Assembly: GCA_019116805.1 (NCBI GenBank) | Contig: DXAV01000008.1 | Coordinates: 1-64,000, forward strand | Source of the DNA: Candidatus Bacteroides merdavium | GTDB taxonomy: Bacteria > Bacteroidota > Bacteroidia > Bacteroidales > Bacteroidaceae | DNA: 64,000 nucleotides | Direction of reading: 5' to 3' | Shown here: piece after piece, positions 44,187 through 53,142 of the stretch | How positions within the stretch are numbered: position 1 is the first letter of the stretch | Layout of the letters: every line of letters begins with the position of its first letter | Notes under the pieces: model-generated | Told to the model about the DNA's origin: nothing | Database searches by the model: none | What the model saw: only the letters and a program-made list of their open reading frames with translations | Position numbers and translations under genes: made by a program

Positions 44187-44250
44187 AAGAAAACAGTGCT
44201 TTCCAAGGACGAAAGCACCGTTTTGCGAGGACGAAAGCATTGCTTTCCAT
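44187..44250. repeat. 22-bp-period palindrome array GAAAGCAxyGCTTTCC, 3 units
   Basis: Unit starts 44189, 44211, 44233. Confidence 0.8.
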
Positions 44251-44371
44251 CCAATAACGAAATACCTACAAATAGGGATTGCGCCGTCCGCCAAAAAATT
44301 GTTAATTTGCGGCCGAGAAAAGAACAACCGCTGCCCAAAGGCAGTTATAACAGTAACAAGCATTTACGCCC

Positions 44372-45079
44372 ATGAACGAACCTCATAAATACCGTGCCAC
44401 GGACAAGATGAGCGACCTCATCTGCGACAATTACTCCCTACTGATGGTGATGAGCCGCTTCGGCTTGTCGCTGGGCTTTGGCGACCGGTCGGTGAAGGAC
44501 GTCTGCCAGGCACAGGGGGTGGACTACAAGACCTTTCTGGCCGTAGCCAACTTCATCAGCCACGAACCCTACACGTACAGCGGCGAGGAGGATGACTTCT
44601 CGCTCACCGCCCTGATGGACTACCTGAAGCGGGCGCACGCGTACTTCCTCGACTTCAACCTGCCTGCCATCCGACGCAAGCTCATCGAGGCCATCGACTG
44701 CTCGGGCACCAACGATGTGGCCTTCCTCATCCTGAAGTTCTTCGACGAATATGCCAAGGAGGTGCGCCGCCACATGGAGTACGAAAACCAGGCCGTCTTC
44801 ACCTACGTGGACGGGCTGTTGCGAGGCCGCCTGTCCGACACCTACGACATCGCCACCTTCGCCAGCCACCACAACCAGATAGACAGCAAGCTGACGGAAC
44901 TGAAGAACATCATCATCAAGTATTACCCCGAAAAGGAGAATAACAACCTGCTGAACGCCGTCCTGTTCGACATCTTCAATTGCGAGCAGGACCTGGCGTC
45001 GCACTGCCAGGTGGAGGACTACATGTTTGTGCCCGCCGTGGCGCAGATGGAAAGGAGATTGAAAGATGAACACCAATAA
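44372..45079 (+). CDS. Hemerythrin HHE / RIC-like domain protein
   Basis: MSDLICDNYSLLMVMSRFGLSLGFGDRSVKDVC; EVRRHMEYENQAVFTYV; DLASHCQVEDYMFVPAV. Confidence 0.85.
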   Translation: MNEPHKYRATDKMSDLICDNYSLLMVMSRFGLSLGFGDRSVKDVCQAQGVDYKTFLAVANFISHEPYTYSGEEDDFSLTALMDYLKRAHAYFLDFNLPAIRRKLIEAIDCSGTNDVAFLILKFFDEYAKEVRRHMEYENQAVFTYVDGLLRGRLSDTYDIATFASHHNQIDSKLTELKNIIIKYYPEKENNNLLNAVLFDIFNCEQDLASHCQVEDYMFVPAVAQMERRLKDEHQ

Positions 45080-45692
45080 CCAGTCGTTGAAGATAGTCGT
45101 GGCCGAAGCGTCCATCATCATCCGCAGTGGCGTATCGGCCGTATTAAAACGCATCCCCAACCTCGACATTCATCCCATCGAGGTGAACTCGGTCGAGGCG
45201 CTGAGCCACTATGCCCACCTGCACCAGCCGGACATGGTCATCATCAATCCCTCGTTCGACGGATGGTTCAACCTGCCTGCCTTCAAGGCCGAACATCCCC
45301 GCCTGACGGGTGTGAAGTACATCGCCCTCATCTCGTTGGTAACGAACAACAACGTGCTGAAGGAGTACGACGAGCGCTTCTCCATCTGCGACGACCTCGA
45401 CATCATCGCCGCCAAGCTGAACGGCCTGCTCCGTGGCGGCGAGGAGGAAGAAGAGGAGAAGGACAACGAATCGGACACGCTGAGCCAGCGCGAGAAGGAA
45501 ATCGTGACTTGCGTCGTGAAGGGCATGACGAACAAGGCCATTGCCGAAAAACTTTTCCTGAGCATCCACACCGTCATCACCCACCGCCGCAACATCGCGC
45601 GCAAGCTGCAGATACACTCGCCCGCCGGCCTCACCATCTATGCCATCGTCAACAAGCTGGTGGAGCTGAGCGATATCAAGGAGAAGCTGTAA
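45066..45692 (+). CDS. LuxR-type DNA-binding regulator with degenerate receiver domain
   Basis: LSQREKEIVTCVVKGMTNKAIAEKLFLSIHTVITHRRNIARKL; receiver lacks the phospho-Asp (PDMVIINPSF). Confidence 0.9.
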   Translation: MNTNNQSLKIVVAEASIIIRSGVSAVLKRIPNLDIHPIEVNSVEALSHYAHLHQPDMVIINPSFDGWFNLPAFKAEHPRLTGVKYIALISLVTNNNVLKEYDERFSICDDLDIIAAKLNGLLRGGEEEEEEKDNESDTLSQREKEIVTCVVKGMTNKAIAEKLFLSIHTVITHRRNIARKLQIHSPAGLTIYAIVNKLVELSDIKEKL

Positions 45693-45705
45693 AGCACATT
45701 TTTTT

Positions 45706-45834
45706 ACCACAGATTACGCAGATTGACACAGATTTCAGAAGGACGTATCAAAAATGACGAAGCCTTTACATGCTGTCATTTATAATATTTGACATACCTT
45801 TCTGAAATCTGTGCCAATCTGTGTAATCTGTGGT
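45706..45834. repeat. Degenerate 9-mer (CAGATTACG) hairpin at convergent junction
   Basis: ACCACAGATTACGCAGATTGACACAGATTTCAGAAGG ... CCTTTCTGAAATCTGTGCCAATCTGTGTAATCTGTGGT. Confidence 0.85.
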
Positions 45835-45848
45835 GGGCATACAAGGAA

Positions 45849-45891
45849 ATTCCCGCCCCACGATATCGCATCGGAAGGCGGGAATCTTTTT
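45849..45891. terminator. GC-rich hairpin terminator, T-tract on + strand (luxR side); may also end the candidate minus-strand sRNA
   Basis: ATTCCCGCC ... GGCGGGAATcTTTTT. Confidence 0.75.
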
Positions 45892-45942
45892 ACCTTACTT
45901 GTGGTTACGTAATTATGACTAACTAATTCATTCAAATCTGAT
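45849..45942 (-). ncRNA. Candidate small RNA driven by a regulated minus-strand promoter
   Basis: Minus-strand TACCTTTG at 45947-45954, two AGTAGGTATT boxes upstream, no ORF downstream, hairpin end. Confidence 0.4.
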
Positions 45943-45946
45943 GATG

Positions 45947-46026
45947 CAAAGGTAGTGCATCGCAGTGGATGGTGCAATCGCTTGAAGTAGGTATTTTCGG
46001 GTACGAAACATCAGGCAGTAGGTATT
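45947..46026 (-). promoter_or_regulatory. Promoter (-7 TACCTTTG) with two AGTAGGTATT boxes 31 bp apart
   Basis: AGTAGGTATT at 45986-45995 and 46017-46026; 31 bp between proximal box and -7 box. Confidence 0.6.
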
Positions 46027-46055
46027 GAGGACAATTATTCTCAATTTTCCATTCA

Positions 46056-48278
46056 TCAAGCGTAGCTGTGCATGCCTCCCAGCAGGAAATTGACGCCGAA
46101 GTAGGTAACCAGCACGCAGAGGAAGGCCACCACACTGAACACGTGGAAGAACAACGGACGGCGGAAGCAGGGCAACGAAGCAGGATGGAGGGCCAGGGCA
46201 TAGACAAGCATCGTGACCAGCGCCCACACCTCCTTGGGGTCCCATCCCCAGTAACGGCCCCACGACACATTGGCCCACACGGCGCCGATGAAGATGCCTG
46301 CCGCCAGCAGGAAGACGGCCGGATAGAGCAGCAGGCTGCTCACCACCTGAAGGCGCTCCACCTGAGCTTCACACTCCCTGCGCGAAGCAAGCAGAACCAG
46401 CGCCGCCACCCCATTGAGCATGACGAAGGCCAGCAGGGCGTAGGCCACCATAATAACCGCCACATGCACACTGAGCAGGGGCGAGGCAAGGACAGGCATC
46501 AGTTGGCCCACCTGCGGATTGCGCTCGCCCAGCATGGACACCACCAACGCCAACCCACACACCAGGAAGCCCAAAGGGAGCGCCAGGGGCAGACGGCGAT
46601 GGAAGACGAGGGTGAGCAGGGCGGCACAAAGGGCCAGCAGGTGCATCGTTTCGTGCCCGTTGGACATGGGCAGGTGGCCGCTCACCAGGCCACGAAGCAC
46701 CATCAGGCCTGCCAGCCAACAGGCCATCAGAGCCAATACGACCAGCAGCATACGACTTACCACTCGCCTCTCCCGCCGACGAAGCATCAGGCAGCGGACA
46801 GAATAAACAAAGGAGAACAATCCCAGCACAACAGAGGCCACGGCCAGCGGAAAGCTGTCGTTCACCTGATTATAGGCCTGCTCGGCACGAAAGCGGAGGT
46901 CAGAAGGCAGCAACGCCCCACCCTCGCGCTGCTGGTAGCGGCGTATCTTGCCCACCAGCCGCTCCACCTCGGCAAAATCCTTGCGCGCCACCTGCTCGGC
47001 CACGTAGTTCATCGCCCCACGCACGAAGGTGCCTTCTTCAAGGGGCATGTCGCGCGGCAGGCGGTCGGCCAGGGAGAGCCACTCCAGGCGGGAGGCATCG
47101 GCCGACGACGGGGACGTATAGGGAAAAATGCGCCAGGCCGCCCCTGTCGCCACGCTGCTCACCAGGCTGAACTTCTCGTTGGCCTCGCCCACGGCCTTTG
47201 CGTCGGCCATGGAAGCGTCGGCCAAGACTTCGGCATCGAGTCGGTAGCCCTCAGGGCCGAAGAAGTCCTGCAACGAGGCATAACGCCCACCAATGCCCAG
47301 CAGGCGGCGCACGTCGGCACTCTTCACGCGGATGCACGGCTCGCACTTCCAGTCGTCGTAGTAGAAGAACCAGCCCGTCAGTACCTGCTCGGCTGTGAAG
47401 CCCCGATACGTGGGCTTGCCACAGAGTTTCATGGTGAAATCCTTGGCCAGCGTCTGCAGGGGGCAGACGCGGTCGTTGTAATAGACATAGAGCCGACCGA
47501 AGCAAGCAGCCGTCTCGCGTGGCAAGGTGCGCGGCAGGTCTTCGGCCGCCCGCACGAAGGGCGCGGCCAGCAAGAGGCCTGCCACCCCCGCCGCCCGAAG
47601 CGACGGATGGCGAAGCAGGCGACGGAACCCGCTCTGAGGTTCAAGGAAGAAGGCCAGGGCCGAAAGCAGCAGAAGGGCATAGCCCGCATAGGTGAGGCCG
47701 ATGCCCCAAGGGTCGCAGGCCACGGACAAGGTAACGCCCTGCCCGTCGGAGTCGTAGCCCGACTGATAGAAGCGGTAGCCCTCATGGCGGAAGATGCGGT
47801 TCATGGACACCTCGCCCTGATGCACTTCATCGCCTGCGGTCAGCGTGAAGCGGCTCACGAAGTCTTTCGGTGCCGATGTGCCCGCATAATACTCCACCCT
47901 GAACTCCTCCAGCGAGAGGCGGAAGGGGAAGGCCGCCGTCCGCCCCTCGGACGTGGCAAAGGCCTCTGCCGCCTCGCCCTGCCGCAGGTGCACGCGCCCC
48001 TGCAGGCCCCACACGTGGGTGACCAGCGCCCCCAGCAGGATGAGCACCAAGGAGAGATGAAACAAAAAAGTCGCCCGACGCTTCTGCATCCGACGACGCC
48101 ACAGATAACCCATACCCGCAACGGCCATCAGCGCCCAGCAGGCCACGAACCAGGGCGAGCCATAGACGTGGCGCACGACCAAGGGAGTGCCCCACACCTT
48201 CTCCACACACGTGGCGGCCATCAATACACAGACAAGCAGGCCCAGCAGGCCGAAGGAAAGATTTCGCAAGATTTTCAT
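46056..48278 (-). CDS. Fused ResB/CcsA cytochrome c biogenesis protein (CcsBA-like)
   Basis: WGRYWGWDPKEVWALVTMLVYALALH (WWD-like); N-terminal ResB region; ATG 48278. Confidence 0.92.
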   Translation of the reverse strand: MKILRNLSFGLLGLLVCVLMAATCVEKVWGTPLVVRHVYGSPWFVACWALMAVAGMGYLWRRRMQKRRATFLFHLSLVLILLGALVTHVWGLQGRVHLRQGEAAEAFATSEGRTAAFPFRLSLEEFRVEYYAGTSAPKDFVSRFTLTAGDEVHQGEVSMNRIFRHEGYRFYQSGYDSDGQGVTLSVACDPWGIGLTYAGYALLLLSALAFFLEPQSGFRRLLRHPSLRAAGVAGLLLAAPFVRAAEDLPRTLPRETAACFGRLYVYYNDRVCPLQTLAKDFTMKLCGKPTYRGFTAEQVLTGWFFYYDDWKCEPCIRVKSADVRRLLGIGGRYASLQDFFGPEGYRLDAEVLADASMADAKAVGEANEKFSLVSSVATGAAWRIFPYTSPSSADASRLEWLSLADRLPRDMPLEEGTFVRGAMNYVAEQVARKDFAEVERLVGKIRRYQQREGGALLPSDLRFRAEQAYNQVNDSFPLAVASVVLGLFSFVYSVRCLMLRRRERRVVSRMLLVVLALMACWLAGLMVLRGLVSGHLPMSNGHETMHLLALCAALLTLVFHRRLPLALPLGFLVCGLALVVSMLGERNPQVGQLMPVLASPLLSVHVAVIMVAYALLAFVMLNGVAALVLLASRRECEAQVERLQVVSSLLLYPAVFLLAAGIFIGAVWANVSWGRYWGWDPKEVWALVTMLVYALALHPASLPCFRRPLFFHVFSVVAFLCVLVTYFGVNFLLGGMHSYA

Positions 48279-48399
48279 ACCTGATAAGGATTTATAGGAA
48301 AGCAGATGTTTGAGAAATGCGACGATTAAACGCCACCGAGGCCGCTCCGGATAGTAAAGCATATTTACACGGAATTCAGACCCCGAAATCGCCCGTCCA

Positions 48400-48504
48400 G
48401 ACTCCCTAGAGTCATGGGGCAAGACTCCTTAGAGTCATCGGCCATGACTCCCTAGAGTGTCAAGCCACAACTCCCTAGAGTCTTCGAGAGAGACTCCAGG
48501 GAGT
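48400..48504. repeat. Exact 23-bp-period palindrome array GACTCCCTAGAGTC, 5 units
   Basis: Unit starts 48400, 48423, 48446, 48469, 48492. Confidence 0.92.
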
Positions 48505-48664
48505 TTGTAAACGCTTGATTATCAGCATCAGCAGAGACGGTTCCATCCGGCCGACGGGCAAAGGCGGGAGTGCGGACCTCCGACTCAGTGCAATAAAACA
48601 TATTTACACACGAGCAAGCGTGTTGAGAAGCTCTGCACAGAGCCGAACCCCTTCCGGCAAGTCA

Positions 48665-50317
48665 TCAGATGGAGTCGATGAACTTCACCACCGCCTCGCG
48701 GTCCTCTTTCGAGAGCTCGCGGAACTTCTGGACGGTGTAGTAGGCATCGCTCTGCTCGCTGGTGCCGTGCCACATGATGGCTTCCATCGTGGTGCGCGCA
48801 CGGCAGTCGTGCAGGCGGTCGGCATACTCGGCCCCTGTGCAACGCTGGTGCAGGCCGCGCCCCCAGAGCGGCGTGGTGCGGCACCAACCAGTGCGGATGT
48901 CGTTCACCATGTGGAGCTTGTGCTGCACCATGTCGGTGTAGGGCCAAATCTTCTGATGCGGATAGCGGGGCAGTTGCTTGGCCTTGTCGCCTGTGAAGAA
49001 GCGGGCAGGGTCGCGTATCTCGTCGTCGCCCGTCGTCCAGGTGGGCTTGTGGCAGTAGGCGCAACCTATCTCCGAGAAGAGTTCCTTGCCGCGGAGCACT
49101 TCCTCGTCGTCCACGTTGCGGGCGGCGGGCACGGCCAGTCCACGATGCCACACCATGAGGTCGATGTAGTCCTGGTCGCTCACTTCGACGGGCAGCGTCT
49201 TCGACGTCAGGTAGTTGTAGATGTTGTCCGCCACGTTGTCCGTGAACCATTCAGGGTGTTCCTCGGGTGTGGACACCTTGGCGATATAGTCGGGAAAGCC
49301 CGCCTGAATGTCGGGGTCCTGCGAAGCATATTGGGCATAGGAGCCTGCCGCGTCGAGGTAATGGAAGCGGCGGTCGCTACGCGTGGCGTTGGTGATGTTC
49401 CAGAAGGCATTGGCACCCGCCGCGTCCTGCAAGGGGCCACGGCTCAGGGCGTAGGTATAGCGGAGCGGATAGAGGGTACCGTCGCCACCTTGCGCCGTAT
49501 TGGCATATTGCTTCACCCACTCTCCGTTCTTGAAGATGGATTCATTCAGCTTGAAATAGCCGTCCTGCTCCTGCTTGGCGTACTCGGCTTTCAGGTCCTC
49601 GTCGCTGATGGCATCGAGCAGGCCCGTGCCATAGATGCCGATAGTGGACTCCACGCGCACTTCGTACTCGCCCACGTCGTAGCCACGGTTGGCCACGTAG
49701 ATGGCACTCCTGGGGATGTCCACTTCGGGGTAACGCAGGCGGTAGGTCTCGCCGTCGGGAAACTTGTTGCCGAAGGCGTCGGTATATTCATGCCAGGTGA
49801 TGGTAATCTGCGACTCGTCGAGCGGCGCCTTGAAGGGGGCCACGGCATGAGTTTGCGGCATGCCTGCCAGCCAGGGCACATAGGCCTCGGTCTCGGGGTT
49901 GTAAACCACCAGCAGATAGCCGTTTCCTATCTCGTTGGTGTTGAACGTGCCGCTGTTCTGGCTCTTGCCATGCCCGTAGCCAGGATGACAATGGATGCAC
50001 GAAGAGCGGATGTAGAGCGGCCCCAGACCATGACGCATGCCGTCGAAGTTGGCCGTGAAAGGTTTCTCGAAGAACTGCTCGCCACGGTTGAAGGCGGCAT
50101 TCATGGTAGCGTCGGCCTCGACCACGGCCGTGGGGTCTTCGAAGGCCGTCGAGGTAGAGTTGGAGGTAGTGCCCAGTTCGCCGCCCGTGTAGTACCAGTC
50201 GGGCAGCTCATCGGGCGTCACAGGCGAAGGGTTGTCGCCCTTCACGTCGTCGTCGCTACAGGCCGTCAGGCTCAGAGCGGCTCCAAGGATTACATAAAAA
50301 CAGGTCTTTTTCATCAT
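48665..50317 (-). CDS. Di-heme oxidoreductase-like (DHOR) family lipoprotein
   Basis: CXXCH motifs SSCIHCHPGYGHG and GCAYCHKPTW; lipobox LTAC. Confidence 0.9.
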   Translation of the reverse strand: MMKKTCFYVILGAALSLTACSDDDVKGDNPSPVTPDELPDWYYTGGELGTTSNSTSTAFEDPTAVVEADATMNAAFNRGEQFFEKPFTANFDGMRHGLGPLYIRSSCIHCHPGYGHGKSQNSGTFNTNEIGNGYLLVVYNPETEAYVPWLAGMPQTHAVAPFKAPLDESQITITWHEYTDAFGNKFPDGETYRLRYPEVDIPRSAIYVANRGYDVGEYEVRVESTIGIYGTGLLDAISDEDLKAEYAKQEQDGYFKLNESIFKNGEWVKQYANTAQGGDGTLYPLRYTYALSRGPLQDAAGANAFWNITNATRSDRRFHYLDAAGSYAQYASQDPDIQAGFPDYIAKVSTPEEHPEWFTDNVADNIYNYLTSKTLPVEVSDQDYIDLMVWHRGLAVPAARNVDDEEVLRGKELFSEIGCAYCHKPTWTTGDDEIRDPARFFTGDKAKQLPRYPHQKIWPYTDMVQHKLHMVNDIRTGWCRTTPLWGRGLHQRCTGAEYADRLHDCRARTTMEAIMWHGTSEQSDAYYTVQKFRELSKEDREAVVKFIDSI

Positions 50318-50346
50318 TGACTTTTCTTTTTTTTTCTGTTCTATCT

Positions 50347-51609
50347 TTAATGGTTGGCCTGCAACAACGTCTTCACCTCGTCGAAGATATCGTTCATCAC
50401 ATTGCAGGCATCGATGGCATCCTGATTGACTTTATCGTACTCGGCCGCACCACAGGTGTAGGCAAAGGGTTCGCCCATCAGGCTTATCTTGTCGTAGGCG
50501 TCTTGGATGGCGGCCTTCACACGGGTGTCCAGATCGGCATTGAGCGTGGCGACGTAGGTGCTCAGGGTGTGGGTGGCCGTCTGGATGGTACCGTCCACCG
50601 AGGGCGAGCCCTGATAGGCGTTGCGGATGCTGATGACATTGCCTTGGAAGTCGCGGATGGAATTCAGGCTGTAGGGCGACTCGATGTAGCTGGGGTCGTA
50701 CTCCATGCCGCCCGAGGGAAGTCCCTTGCCCGTGGGGTTACCAATCTTGATGTTGCCCACCTCGTTGGCAATGTTCTGTATGCCGGCCGTTATCATGTCG
50801 TACACCACGTCGAGGTAGTTCTTGTACTCACTGCCTGCCGCGCCTGCATTCTTGATGTTATCGCCGAAGTTCTTGCCCTTGTCCAGTTCGGTGTCGGTCA
50901 GAATCTGCTGCTTCTCGGCCGATACATTCTCAGTTCCTGCCCAGCAGGCCTCCAGCAGGATGCACTGGTTGCGCAGGTCGCCTGCCAGTCCCACGAGGTA
51001 GTTCAGCTCTTCGGTGGTGTAGTTCAGGTTGTGGGCCACGCTGGTCGAACTGGCCGTAGCGTTGCCGCTGGCATTGGTGTTGGTCAGCTCGAAGAGCAGG
51101 TACTCGATGGCATGGAAGCCTTGCAGGGCATAGCCCAAGTAGTTACCCACATAGTTGCCTTCGTCGTCCATCTGTGCCATCTGGGCGGGGTTGTTCAGCA
51201 GAGCGTCCATACCCGTCTTGTCCAGCGGCCAGGAGTCGATGTGGGGGTCTACGTTGTAGTCGCCTGCAGGGCCAAACAGCCATGCCTCACTCTTCTCCCA
51301 ATAGTCGCGCGCCAGCTTCCAGGCCTCGCAGGCGGCCTCCACGTCGGCGGTGGTCAGCGTGCCAGCCTGCTTCTTCGTGCGGATGTCGATACACAAGCTG
51401 TGAAGGCTCATGGCGGCGTCGGCCATGCCCTGATACGAAGGAATCACGGTCTTGTCGGCAAAGTCGGCCACCACTTCCTTCAAGGCCTTTTCCTGGGCCG
51501 AAAGCTCGGTTCCGTCGGTAGGGTCGTCGTTGTTACTACAAGATGTCATACTCATGCCCATCATGGCTCCCAGAGCCAGACAGAGCGGAAATTTCAGAAA
51601 TGTTTTCAT
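50347..51609 (-). CDS. Imelysin (M75) family protein
   Basis: GFHAIEYLLF (HxxE); SWPLDKTGMDALL. Confidence 0.9.
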   Translation of the reverse strand: MKTFLKFPLCLALGAMMGMSMTSCSNNDDPTDGTELSAQEKALKEVVADFADKTVIPSYQGMADAAMSLHSLCIDIRTKKQAGTLTTADVEAACEAWKLARDYWEKSEAWLFGPAGDYNVDPHIDSWPLDKTGMDALLNNPAQMAQMDDEGNYVGNYLGYALQGFHAIEYLLFELTNTNASGNATASSTSVAHNLNYTTEELNYLVGLAGDLRNQCILLEACWAGTENVSAEKQQILTDTELDKGKNFGDNIKNAGAAGSEYKNYLDVVYDMITAGIQNIANEVGNIKIGNPTGKGLPSGGMEYDPSYIESPYSLNSIRDFQGNVISIRNAYQGSPSVDGTIQTATHTLSTYVATLNADLDTRVKAAIQDAYDKISLMGEPFAYTCGAAEYDKVNQDAIDACNVMNDIFDEVKTLLQANH

Positions 51610-51673
51610 TGTGTCTTATGTTTTTTGGTTATTATAGAATATATTCAAGCGATAGAAGAGATAAATCACTGTT

Positions 51674-53032
51674 TTACAGGTTGAAGAAGCCCGCATAGGC
51701 CACACCCACCGACACGGCAGGTTCGTTGTTGAACCGGCTTTTGAGAAGGCCGATGGAATATTCGCCCTTGAGCACGACTTCCTTCAGCGGATAGTAGTTG
51801 ACACCCACGGCCAAACGTTGGCGGCCATACTCCTTGTAGTGGGTCACGGCCTTGGCAGTCTTGTACATGGAGTCGTAGTACTCGTAGCGGCCGAAGAGGT
51901 AGAGGCGCTGCTCCTTGTCGGTACGTCTGGGGTTGAGGGAGAGGAAGTCGTAACCCACCTCCACACCTGTGGCTATGGCACTTGAGGCCACGGGCTGCTT
52001 GGGCGAGGGAGAGTCCTTGGAGAAGCTCTGATTGTAGCGGGTGATGAGGTCGGCGTCGGACAGGTGGCCATAGTCGAACGAGCCGCGTGCCACCCAGTTG
52101 TGGGCGTCGTAGCAGAAGTCGAACGCGCCGATAAGTACCGTTCCCTTCACATCGTCGTAAACGGCGTTGGTGGCCTTCTTCAGGGTGTTGCTGAAGGAAT
52201 TGCCCGCATAGCCGCTGAGCGAGAGGCGCAGGCCTTTCACCGAATAGTTGTCCACGCGGAAGGCACCTGCCATGGCATTGGCTATCTTGAATTCATAGGG
52301 GCTGCCCGCTCCACCCTTCACCCAGTCCTTACTGCCGAAGCGGTCGGAGTCGAGACCTGCCAGAAGCATGGCTTCGTAGCGCCACTGCCCGGCACGGCCC
52401 CAAAGGCTGATGCCCGTCTCGTGCCACGTGCAGGGCAGGATGCTGTTCTCGCCCTCGGGTCGATAGACGCCGAAGAACTCGGTGGGTAGGTGGTGGGCAT
52501 TGGTCATGCCGACGGGCACCACCATGTGGCCCAGCTTGATGTTGAACTGGGGACAGAAGGACTTCTGAATCCAAAACTGCTCGAGGGCCACTTCACCGCC
52601 GCGTTCCACTTCGCTTTCGTATTCGCCGCCTTCGTGTTCCTCAATCTCGACGGCACTCTCCGTGCCGCCATGTTCGAACTCGATTTCGGTACCCATGGTC
52701 CAGCCCTTGCCGAAGTCGTAACCCAGCATGATGACTACGTGGGGCAGGTCGAAGCGTCCGTGCGTGTCGTCCTTGTAGTTCTGCGGGCTGTCGTAGCGCA
52801 GGTAATTGTCACTATAAAAATTGTAGCTGTAAACGGCTTCCCCATAGCCGCCGATGGTGAAGCGCCGCTTGCGGGGAGCGGCTTCGGCGTCGGTTTGCTG
52901 TACAGCTTCGATACTTGCCAGCTTGGCCCGTCCGTCGGGCTCCTGCCGTTGAGAGGTTGTTCCCTCGTCGGCGTAAAGTGCTCCTGTACAGAGCATCAGG
53001 CCCAATGACAGGCCCCATACCTTTTGTTTCAT
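51674..53032 (-). CDS. Outer-membrane beta-barrel porin-like protein
   Basis: Signal; GYGEAVYSYNFYSDNY...; terminal GVAYAGFFNL. Confidence 0.75.
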   Translation of the reverse strand: MKQKVWGLSLGLMLCTGALYADEGTTSQRQEPDGRAKLASIEAVQQTDAEAAPRKRRFTIGGYGEAVYSYNFYSDNYLRYDSPQNYKDDTHGRFDLPHVVIMLGYDFGKGWTMGTEIEFEHGGTESAVEIEEHEGGEYESEVERGGEVALEQFWIQKSFCPQFNIKLGHMVVPVGMTNAHHLPTEFFGVYRPEGENSILPCTWHETGISLWGRAGQWRYEAMLLAGLDSDRFGSKDWVKGGAGSPYEFKIANAMAGAFRVDNYSVKGLRLSLSGYAGNSFSNTLKKATNAVYDDVKGTVLIGAFDFCYDAHNWVARGSFDYGHLSDADLITRYNQSFSKDSPSPKQPVASSAIATGVEVGYDFLSLNPRRTDKEQRLYLFGRYEYYDSMYKTAKAVTHYKEYGRQRLAVGVNYYPLKEVVLKGEYSIGLLKSRFNNEPAVSVGVAYAGFFNL

Positions 53033-53063
53033 TTCCCTTATTTTTTATAATTTTTTGTTGGTG

Positions 53064-53142
53064 CAAAGGTACGGGGGCACTCAAAGGGGGGCAATACCTA
53101 AAAGTGGGTATTGTGGGGAGGGAAATAGGTAGTTTTAGGTAT
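53064..53142 (-). promoter_or_regulatory. Promoter (-7 TACCTTTG) with two TRGGTAT boxes 31 bp apart upstream of the porin operon
   Basis: TACCTTTG (minus) 53064-53071; box1 AGTGGGTATTG 53103-53113; box2 TAGGTAT 53136-53142; CAATACC-N8-GGTATTG inverted repeat 53092-53113. Confidence 0.6.

Follow-up and report, generated by a model that had tools for sequence, protein, structure and literature searches.

A 64,000-nucleotide stretch of the Candidatus Bacteroides merdavium genome (contig DXAV01000008.1, positions 1–64,000; hereafter the window) contains three promoters of a single architecture, in which an inverted repeat (dyad) overlaps the −33 element and stands at a fixed distance from the −7 element. 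One precedes a porin–imelysin–di-haem–ccsBA operon, one a conserved small RNA (sRNA) encoded downstream of ccsBA, and one an operon for a hemerythrin-domain protein and a LuxR/NarL-type regulator. The element recurs throughout the genus Bacteroides, where it precedes genes whose B. thetaiotaomicron counterparts are induced by iron starvation, including xusABC, flavodoxin, the porin/M75/CcsA locus, and TonB receptors. These dyads are probably the operators of the adjacent CdhR-type LuxR regulator, which would act as a class II activator under low iron, with a tandem half-site at strong promoters.

Dyad promoters in the window and across the genus

The original prediction had placed two minus-strand promoters with identical spacing on either side of the porin operon, and every element of both was recovered at its predicted position. 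The −7 element TACCTTTG occurs on the minus strand at 53,064–53,071 (porin side) and at 45,947–45,954 (sRNA side), and the distance to the next box is exactly 31 bp in each case (AGTGGGTATT, 53,103–53,112, and AGTAGGTATT, 45,986–45,995, respectively). Outer boxes follow after a further 31 bp, as TAGGTAT at 53,136–53,142 (minus strand; ATACCTA when read as a second half-site upstream of the porin dyad) and as AGTAGGTATT at 46,017–46,026 (minus strand; half-site AATACCTACT upstream of the sRNA dyad). Both words are overrepresented in the window, with 12 occurrences of TAGGTAT (2.5 expected; 0 of 100 shuffles reached 12) and 10 of TACCTTTG (1.3 expected). While the boxes are present, a single box is not the binding unit that had been proposed, since it constitutes one half of a NarL-type dyad; at the porin promoter the other half is ATACCTA (53,094–53,100, plus strand), which overlaps the −33 element. 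On the transcribed strand, the porin promoter reads AATACCCACTTTTAGGTATTG-N20-TACCTTTG, with a dyad (53,092–53,112, minus strand) that has no mismatches to the pattern and an ATTG that serves as the −33 element, and the sRNA promoter reads AATACCTACTTCAAGCGATTG-N20-TACCTTTG, with a dyad (45,975–45,995, minus strand) whose right half is degenerate. The two promoters do bracket the operon, but a third of the same type had been overlooked on the plus strand 5′ of the hemerythrin–luxR operon (AATACCTACAAATAGGGATTG-N20-TTAATTTG, 44,261–44,309; dyad, 44,261–44,281; −7 element 20 bp past the dyad, 44,302–44,309). Three imperfect direct repeats (TCCAAGGACGAAA; 44,200–44,262; spacing of 22 and 26 bp) end at this dyad.

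The common form of the dyad is AATACCYA-N4-TAGGKATTG, and a position matrix of 195 distinct sites places inverted heptamers within it, TACCYAC-N2-ATAGGKA, at a 7-2-7 spacing. NarL operators have a 7-2-7 geometry with the consensus TACYYMT-N2-AKRRGTA. The final ATTG of the dyad occupies the −33 position and is followed by 20 bp and the −7 element TAnnTTTG, a position from which a bound activator would contact RNA polymerase directly. Among the 195 sites, an extra TACCYA half-site is enriched solely at −31/−32 (n = 21, with all other upstream offsets <3), and it is kept in 10 of 11 strong porin promoters. The predicted tandem architecture is therefore conserved, though the identical 31-bp spacing that holds at both sites in the window is not a universal rule, with orthologous porin promoters having either 31 or 32 bp.

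Conservation was assessed with a 49-bp pattern (dyad-N20-TANNTTTG), using the reversed pattern as a control. The whole assembly (2.94 Mb) has nine matches at ≤3 mismatches, compared to none for the control, and beyond the promoters in the window these include copies 5′ of an xusABC-type operon (TonB receptor, DUF4374, PepSY; contig C41), of a leucine-carboxyl-methyltransferase-like gene, and of enolase. Across 101 Bacteroides genomes, 319 matches (≤2 mismatches) were found in 90 genomes, compared to three for the control. Where the orthologous promoters could have lacked the pattern, it was instead present 5′ of the hemerythrin gene at 73 of the 77 LuxR-ortholog loci with enough upstream DNA (≤4 mismatches), in addition to the half-site of the porin promoters; with spacing left free, the −7 element fell exactly 20 bp past the dyad in 71 of 74 orthologs. 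The dyad promoters carry both elements of sigma-ABfr promoters (−7 TAnnTTTG and a −33 element), as defined for B. thetaiotaomicron (PMC7366714), and since these elements are generic to that promoter class, the resemblance could in principle reflect chance or a general Bacteroides promoter feature. Such an explanation is extremely improbable and is already contradicted by the pattern counts, by the footprint in orthologs, by the flavodoxin promoters described below, and by the fixed dyad and spacing, whereas the spacers of generic Bacteroides promoters are variable (PMC7366714).

Target genes and iron starvation

The genes behind 98 sampled sites were used to define target classes. TonB-dependent receptors form the largest class, with 24 in one cluster and others in smaller clusters, followed by enolase (n = 12), TetR regulators (n = 7), hemerythrin–luxR (n = 6), porin (n = 5), and leucine-rich repeat lipoproteins with TonB partners (n = 3), while flavodoxin, MMPL, PepSY, a cation diffusion facilitator, and a C10 peptidase were single cases. 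The leucine-rich repeat lipoprotein L197 was considered as a HmuY-like protein and ruled out, as both Pfam and PDB matches indicate leucine-rich repeats. When flavodoxin genes were instead located by protein similarity and 350 bp upstream were scanned, the motif was present in 15 of 30 genomes (≤3 mismatches; 0.0 in shuffles), and the remaining 15 upstream regions contained a weaker version at the same position. The motif is found at the enolase promoter of 12 or more genomes, although a glycolytic gene is a surprising member of an iron regulon. In the genome of the window (G000), divergent dyad promoters lie between the leucine-carboxyl-methyltransferase-like gene and enolase (contig C41, 62,362–62,509; L111).

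In the window, the porin operon is encoded on the minus strand and begins with the porin (51,674–53,032), for which there was no Pfam match and the orthologous promoters were compared. It is followed by an imelysin/peptidase M75 lipoprotein (50,347–51,609; PF09375), a di-haem oxidoreductase (DHOR) lipoprotein (48,665–50,317; PF06537), and ccsBA, a ResB/CcsA cytochrome c assembly gene (46,056–48,422; PF01578, PF05140) with an uncertain start codon in the listed open reading frame.

A study of B. thetaiotaomicron (PMC10434189), a species other than that of the window, reports induction under iron starvation of fldA (326-fold), xusABC (490–676-fold), the BT2473-82 locus of porin, thiol oxidoreductase, M75, and CcsA genes (63–324-fold), and TetR loci (51–675-fold), together with a 16–20-fold increase of BT_0519-0520, the hemerythrin and LuxR-type pair of that species. 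In the same study, low iron represses fumarate reductase, glutamate synthase, and nrfA, and hcp, which like nrfA is a nitrosative gene, also decreases. The description of the system as an uncharacterised regulon therefore holds in part: the gene pair and an iron-responsive gene set are described for B. thetaiotaomicron, Porphyromonas gingivalis, and Prevotella intermedia (PMC10434189), and no operator for it was found in the literature consulted.

The hemerythrin–LuxR pair and the sRNA

The candidate regulator (45,066–45,692, plus strand; PF00196 GerE, 64.8 bits) is a CdhR-like LuxR/NarL-type protein with a degenerate receiver, and its gene overlaps that of a hemerythrin-domain protein (44,372–45,079, plus strand; PF01814), a RIC/YtfE-like probable sensor partner that lies immediately 5′ of luxR in 79 of 80 loci. 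PDB matches of the LuxR protein include VraR, SsrB, and FixJ. The phospho-acceptor Asp of the receiver is replaced by Asn in the window protein and in 72 of 81 orthologs (Ser, n = 6; Asp, n = 3), so that the protein appears NarL-like in DNA binding without being a canonical two-component response regulator. In the hemerythrin partner, four His and two Glu (His89, His134, Glu138, His167, His211, and Glu215) are invariant in an 80-sequence alignment, at the spacing of the YtfE di-iron ligands. At 14 loci one polypeptide takes the place of the pair, fusing the hemerythrin region to GerE and lacking a receiver, and eight of these loci have a dyad upstream (≤4 mismatches); such fusions suggest that the hemerythrin part provides the input to the DNA-binding part. 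The fusion loci (L258, L259, L261, L286, L290, L299, and L301–L308) also include cases inside the GTDB genus Bacteroides.

It is conceivable that the dyad and its LuxR regulator are as proposed and that the signal is nitric oxide, oxygen, or haem, perceived through the RIC-like di-iron protein. The partner has a partial match to TIGR03652 (RIC; 43.5 bits, below the cut-off of 204.7), and CdhR is said to participate in nitric oxide stress in P. gingivalis. This alternative is doubtful, as the target list agrees with the iron-starvation stimulon (PMC10434189) and as hcp and nrfA, which fall in low iron, are both missing from the sampled targets. Iron, presumably read as di-iron occupancy of the hemerythrin protein, is the signal favoured here.

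That the LuxR protein is most likely the dyad binder is suggested by several comparisons of sequence. Genomes with the LuxR gene have a mean of 3.4 pattern matches, compared to 0.6 in those without it, and among distant Bacteroidia perfect NATACC-N8-GGTATTG dyads adjoin remote LuxR genes (L265, L270, L272, L274, and L276; 0.25 dyads expected at ≤1 mismatch in shuffled loci), which supports the GerE protein family as reader of the dyad. At one of these loci (L265, 1,450–3,464), tandem dyads come after the LuxR gene, and beyond them are encoded an outer-membrane-type and a cytochrome c-like protein, a hint of a related regulon outside the Bacteroidales. One genome of the genus (G051, 99% complete) has no LuxR ortholog, sRNA, or motif match, a natural case of loss.

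Several observations weigh against this assignment. Of 24 HmuY loci, expected as targets because of the P. gingivalis literature, just one has the motif within a distance of 1.5 kb (≤3 mismatches), though the operon start may be farther upstream. Published accounts of PG1237, the CdhR of P. gingivalis, disagree on whether it is an activator or a repressor. The sRNA is absent from all eight genomes lacking luxR (Fisher p = 1.5e-8), but this joint loss is weak evidence because the genes adjoin and most such assemblies are incomplete. Lastly, GerE paralogs are encoded in these genomes, with at least one, 51% identical in the DNA-binding domain, in the genome of the window (contig C72), and four of the 101 genomes (G002, G035, G038, and G043) retain one or two matches with no LuxR ortholog detected. 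These last two points would fit a GerE-family paralog, or another iron or haem regulator, reading the dyad, with the hemerythrin–luxR operon merely among its targets. Such an arrangement is quite unlikely given the autoregulatory site at nearly all LuxR loci, the dependence of match number on the LuxR gene, the dyads beside distant LuxR genes, and the NarL-type 7-2-7 geometry.

The existence of the sRNA that was originally proposed for the regulon is borne out by conservation. The RNA of ~100 nt (45,838–45,946, minus strand; covariance model match, 3.8e-15) is convergent to luxR and ends in a hairpin that forms an intrinsic terminator (45,849–45,885, minus strand), with compensatory changes in all 10 predicted pairs; the window copy folds 3.3 standard deviations better than shuffles (z = −3.3). 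Based on the covariance model, the sRNA occurs in 87 of 101 Bacteroides genomes and in 0 of 196 other Bacteroidales, and no Rfam family matches it at or above the gathering score. Across 43 distinct copies, conservation covers the terminator and a 5′ core that takes the form AATTAGTTAGTCATAATTACGTAACCAC or AATTAATTAGTCATAATTTTATTACGTAGCCAC depending on the clade, and almost every copy follows a dyad or degenerate dyad. Two copies are present at L031 (10,884–11,001 and 17,874–17,991), the second directly 5′ of the porin promoter, and in genomes G001, G012, G014, G021, G045, G060, G063, G082, G083, G088, and G093; some second copies (e.g., L195 and L128) diverge in the hairpin. An imperfect inverted repeat of 50 nt with a loop of 29 nt (ACCACAGATTACGCAGATT...; 45,706–45,834) lies between the 3′ end of luxR and the sRNA; it may be a terminator that works in both directions or a dispersed repeat. 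An Rfam match to MIR8565 at 45,703–45,837 is far under the gathering score and is an artefact of this long repeat.

By analogy, the sRNA may be an iron-sparing repressor, a guess consistent with published data in which fumarate reductase, glutamate synthase, and nrfA are repressed by low iron. A search of 61 genomes for exact 15-nt complements of the conserved core returned only the sRNA gene itself and one or two unassigned matches. This result, along with a convergent orientation ~100–600 bp from the luxR 3′ end in most species, would suit a transcript that restrains luxR as a 3′-end antisense RNA or terminator and does not act in trans. That role is unlikely, since the conserved parts are the single-stranded 5′ core and the terminator and not an overlap with luxR, and since extra copies are found away from luxR in several genomes.

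Proposed mechanism and comparison with known systems

In the proposed mechanism, the adjacent LuxR/NarL-type regulator would bind the 7-2-7 inverted repeat as a dimer, immediately 5′ of and overlapping the −33 element, a class II position, and would activate sigma-ABfr-type promoters under iron limitation. The half-site 31–32 bp upstream may, at strong promoters such as those of the porin operon and the sRNA, admit another protomer or dimer on the same face of the DNA. The predicted regulon would include the regulator's own operon, the porin–imelysin–di-haem–ccsBA operon, xusABC-type TonB systems, flavodoxin, an S-adenosylmethionine (SAM) methyltransferase, enolase, and the sRNA. The central claim of the original prediction, that one regulator, most plausibly the adjacent LuxR protein, binds sites about three helical turns apart at hemerythrin, haem/iron, and sRNA genes, has so far survived the tests applied to it.

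The hemerythrin–CdhR pair, its fusion into a single protein (in P. intermedia), and the iron stimulon are already known (PMC10434189). The operator, promoter grammar, tandem half-site, and sRNA appear to be new, with the sRNA not compared with the 269 noncoding candidates of PMC7366714; the available literature yielded no DNA dyad, promoter grammar, genus-wide target list, or sRNA reported for CdhR, and no described operator of CdhR, HaeR, or Har resembling the dyad. The operator, its placement in the promoter, the predicted target list, and the co-regulated sRNA are directly testable in B. thetaiotaomicron. Colitis induces many of these genes, so this may be a main control circuit of gut commensals in inflammation. 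A broader possibility, advanced tentatively, is that the Bacteroides iron response is run mainly by an activator with a hemerythrin di-iron sensor, either separate or fused, a phosphate-blind receiver, an iron dyad, and a genus-wide iron-sparing sRNA.

Compared to NarL/NarP, the system shares the GerE DNA-binding domain and the inverted-heptamer geometry, whereas its operator overlaps the Bacteroides −33 element. It departs from NarL/FixJ regulators in the loss of the phospho-acceptor Asp and in a hemerythrin partner that appears to replace the histidine kinase. The RIC/YtfE/ScdA di-iron repair proteins have the same hemerythrin fold, an invariant His/Glu set, and the same ligand spacing, but the protein described here is tied genetically, and sometimes covalently, to a DNA-binding domain. 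Further counterparts are CdhR (PG1236-37 in P. gingivalis, with CdhR as PG_1237) and BT_0519-0520, equated in PMC10434189, in which a hemerythrin gene is likewise followed by a LuxR-type gene and is induced in low iron (PMC10434189); CdhR is reported to control hmuYR, whereas at most HmuY loci of Bacteroides no motif lies within 1.5 kb. SnoA/BTnc284 of B. thetaiotaomicron is similarly a stress-induced RNA locus, but it is antisense to the hcp promoter (PMC13370916) and the sRNA described here is 3′ of luxR, a location that rules out their identity. RyhB, the iron-sparing sRNA that Fur controls in enterobacteria, is also ~100 nt with an intrinsic terminator and an iron-starvation promoter, but its sequence is unrelated and its promoter is Fur-repressed, whereas that of the Bacteroides sRNA is of an activator type. 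If the broader possibility is true, a Fur/RyhB-like logic would have been assembled from unrelated parts.

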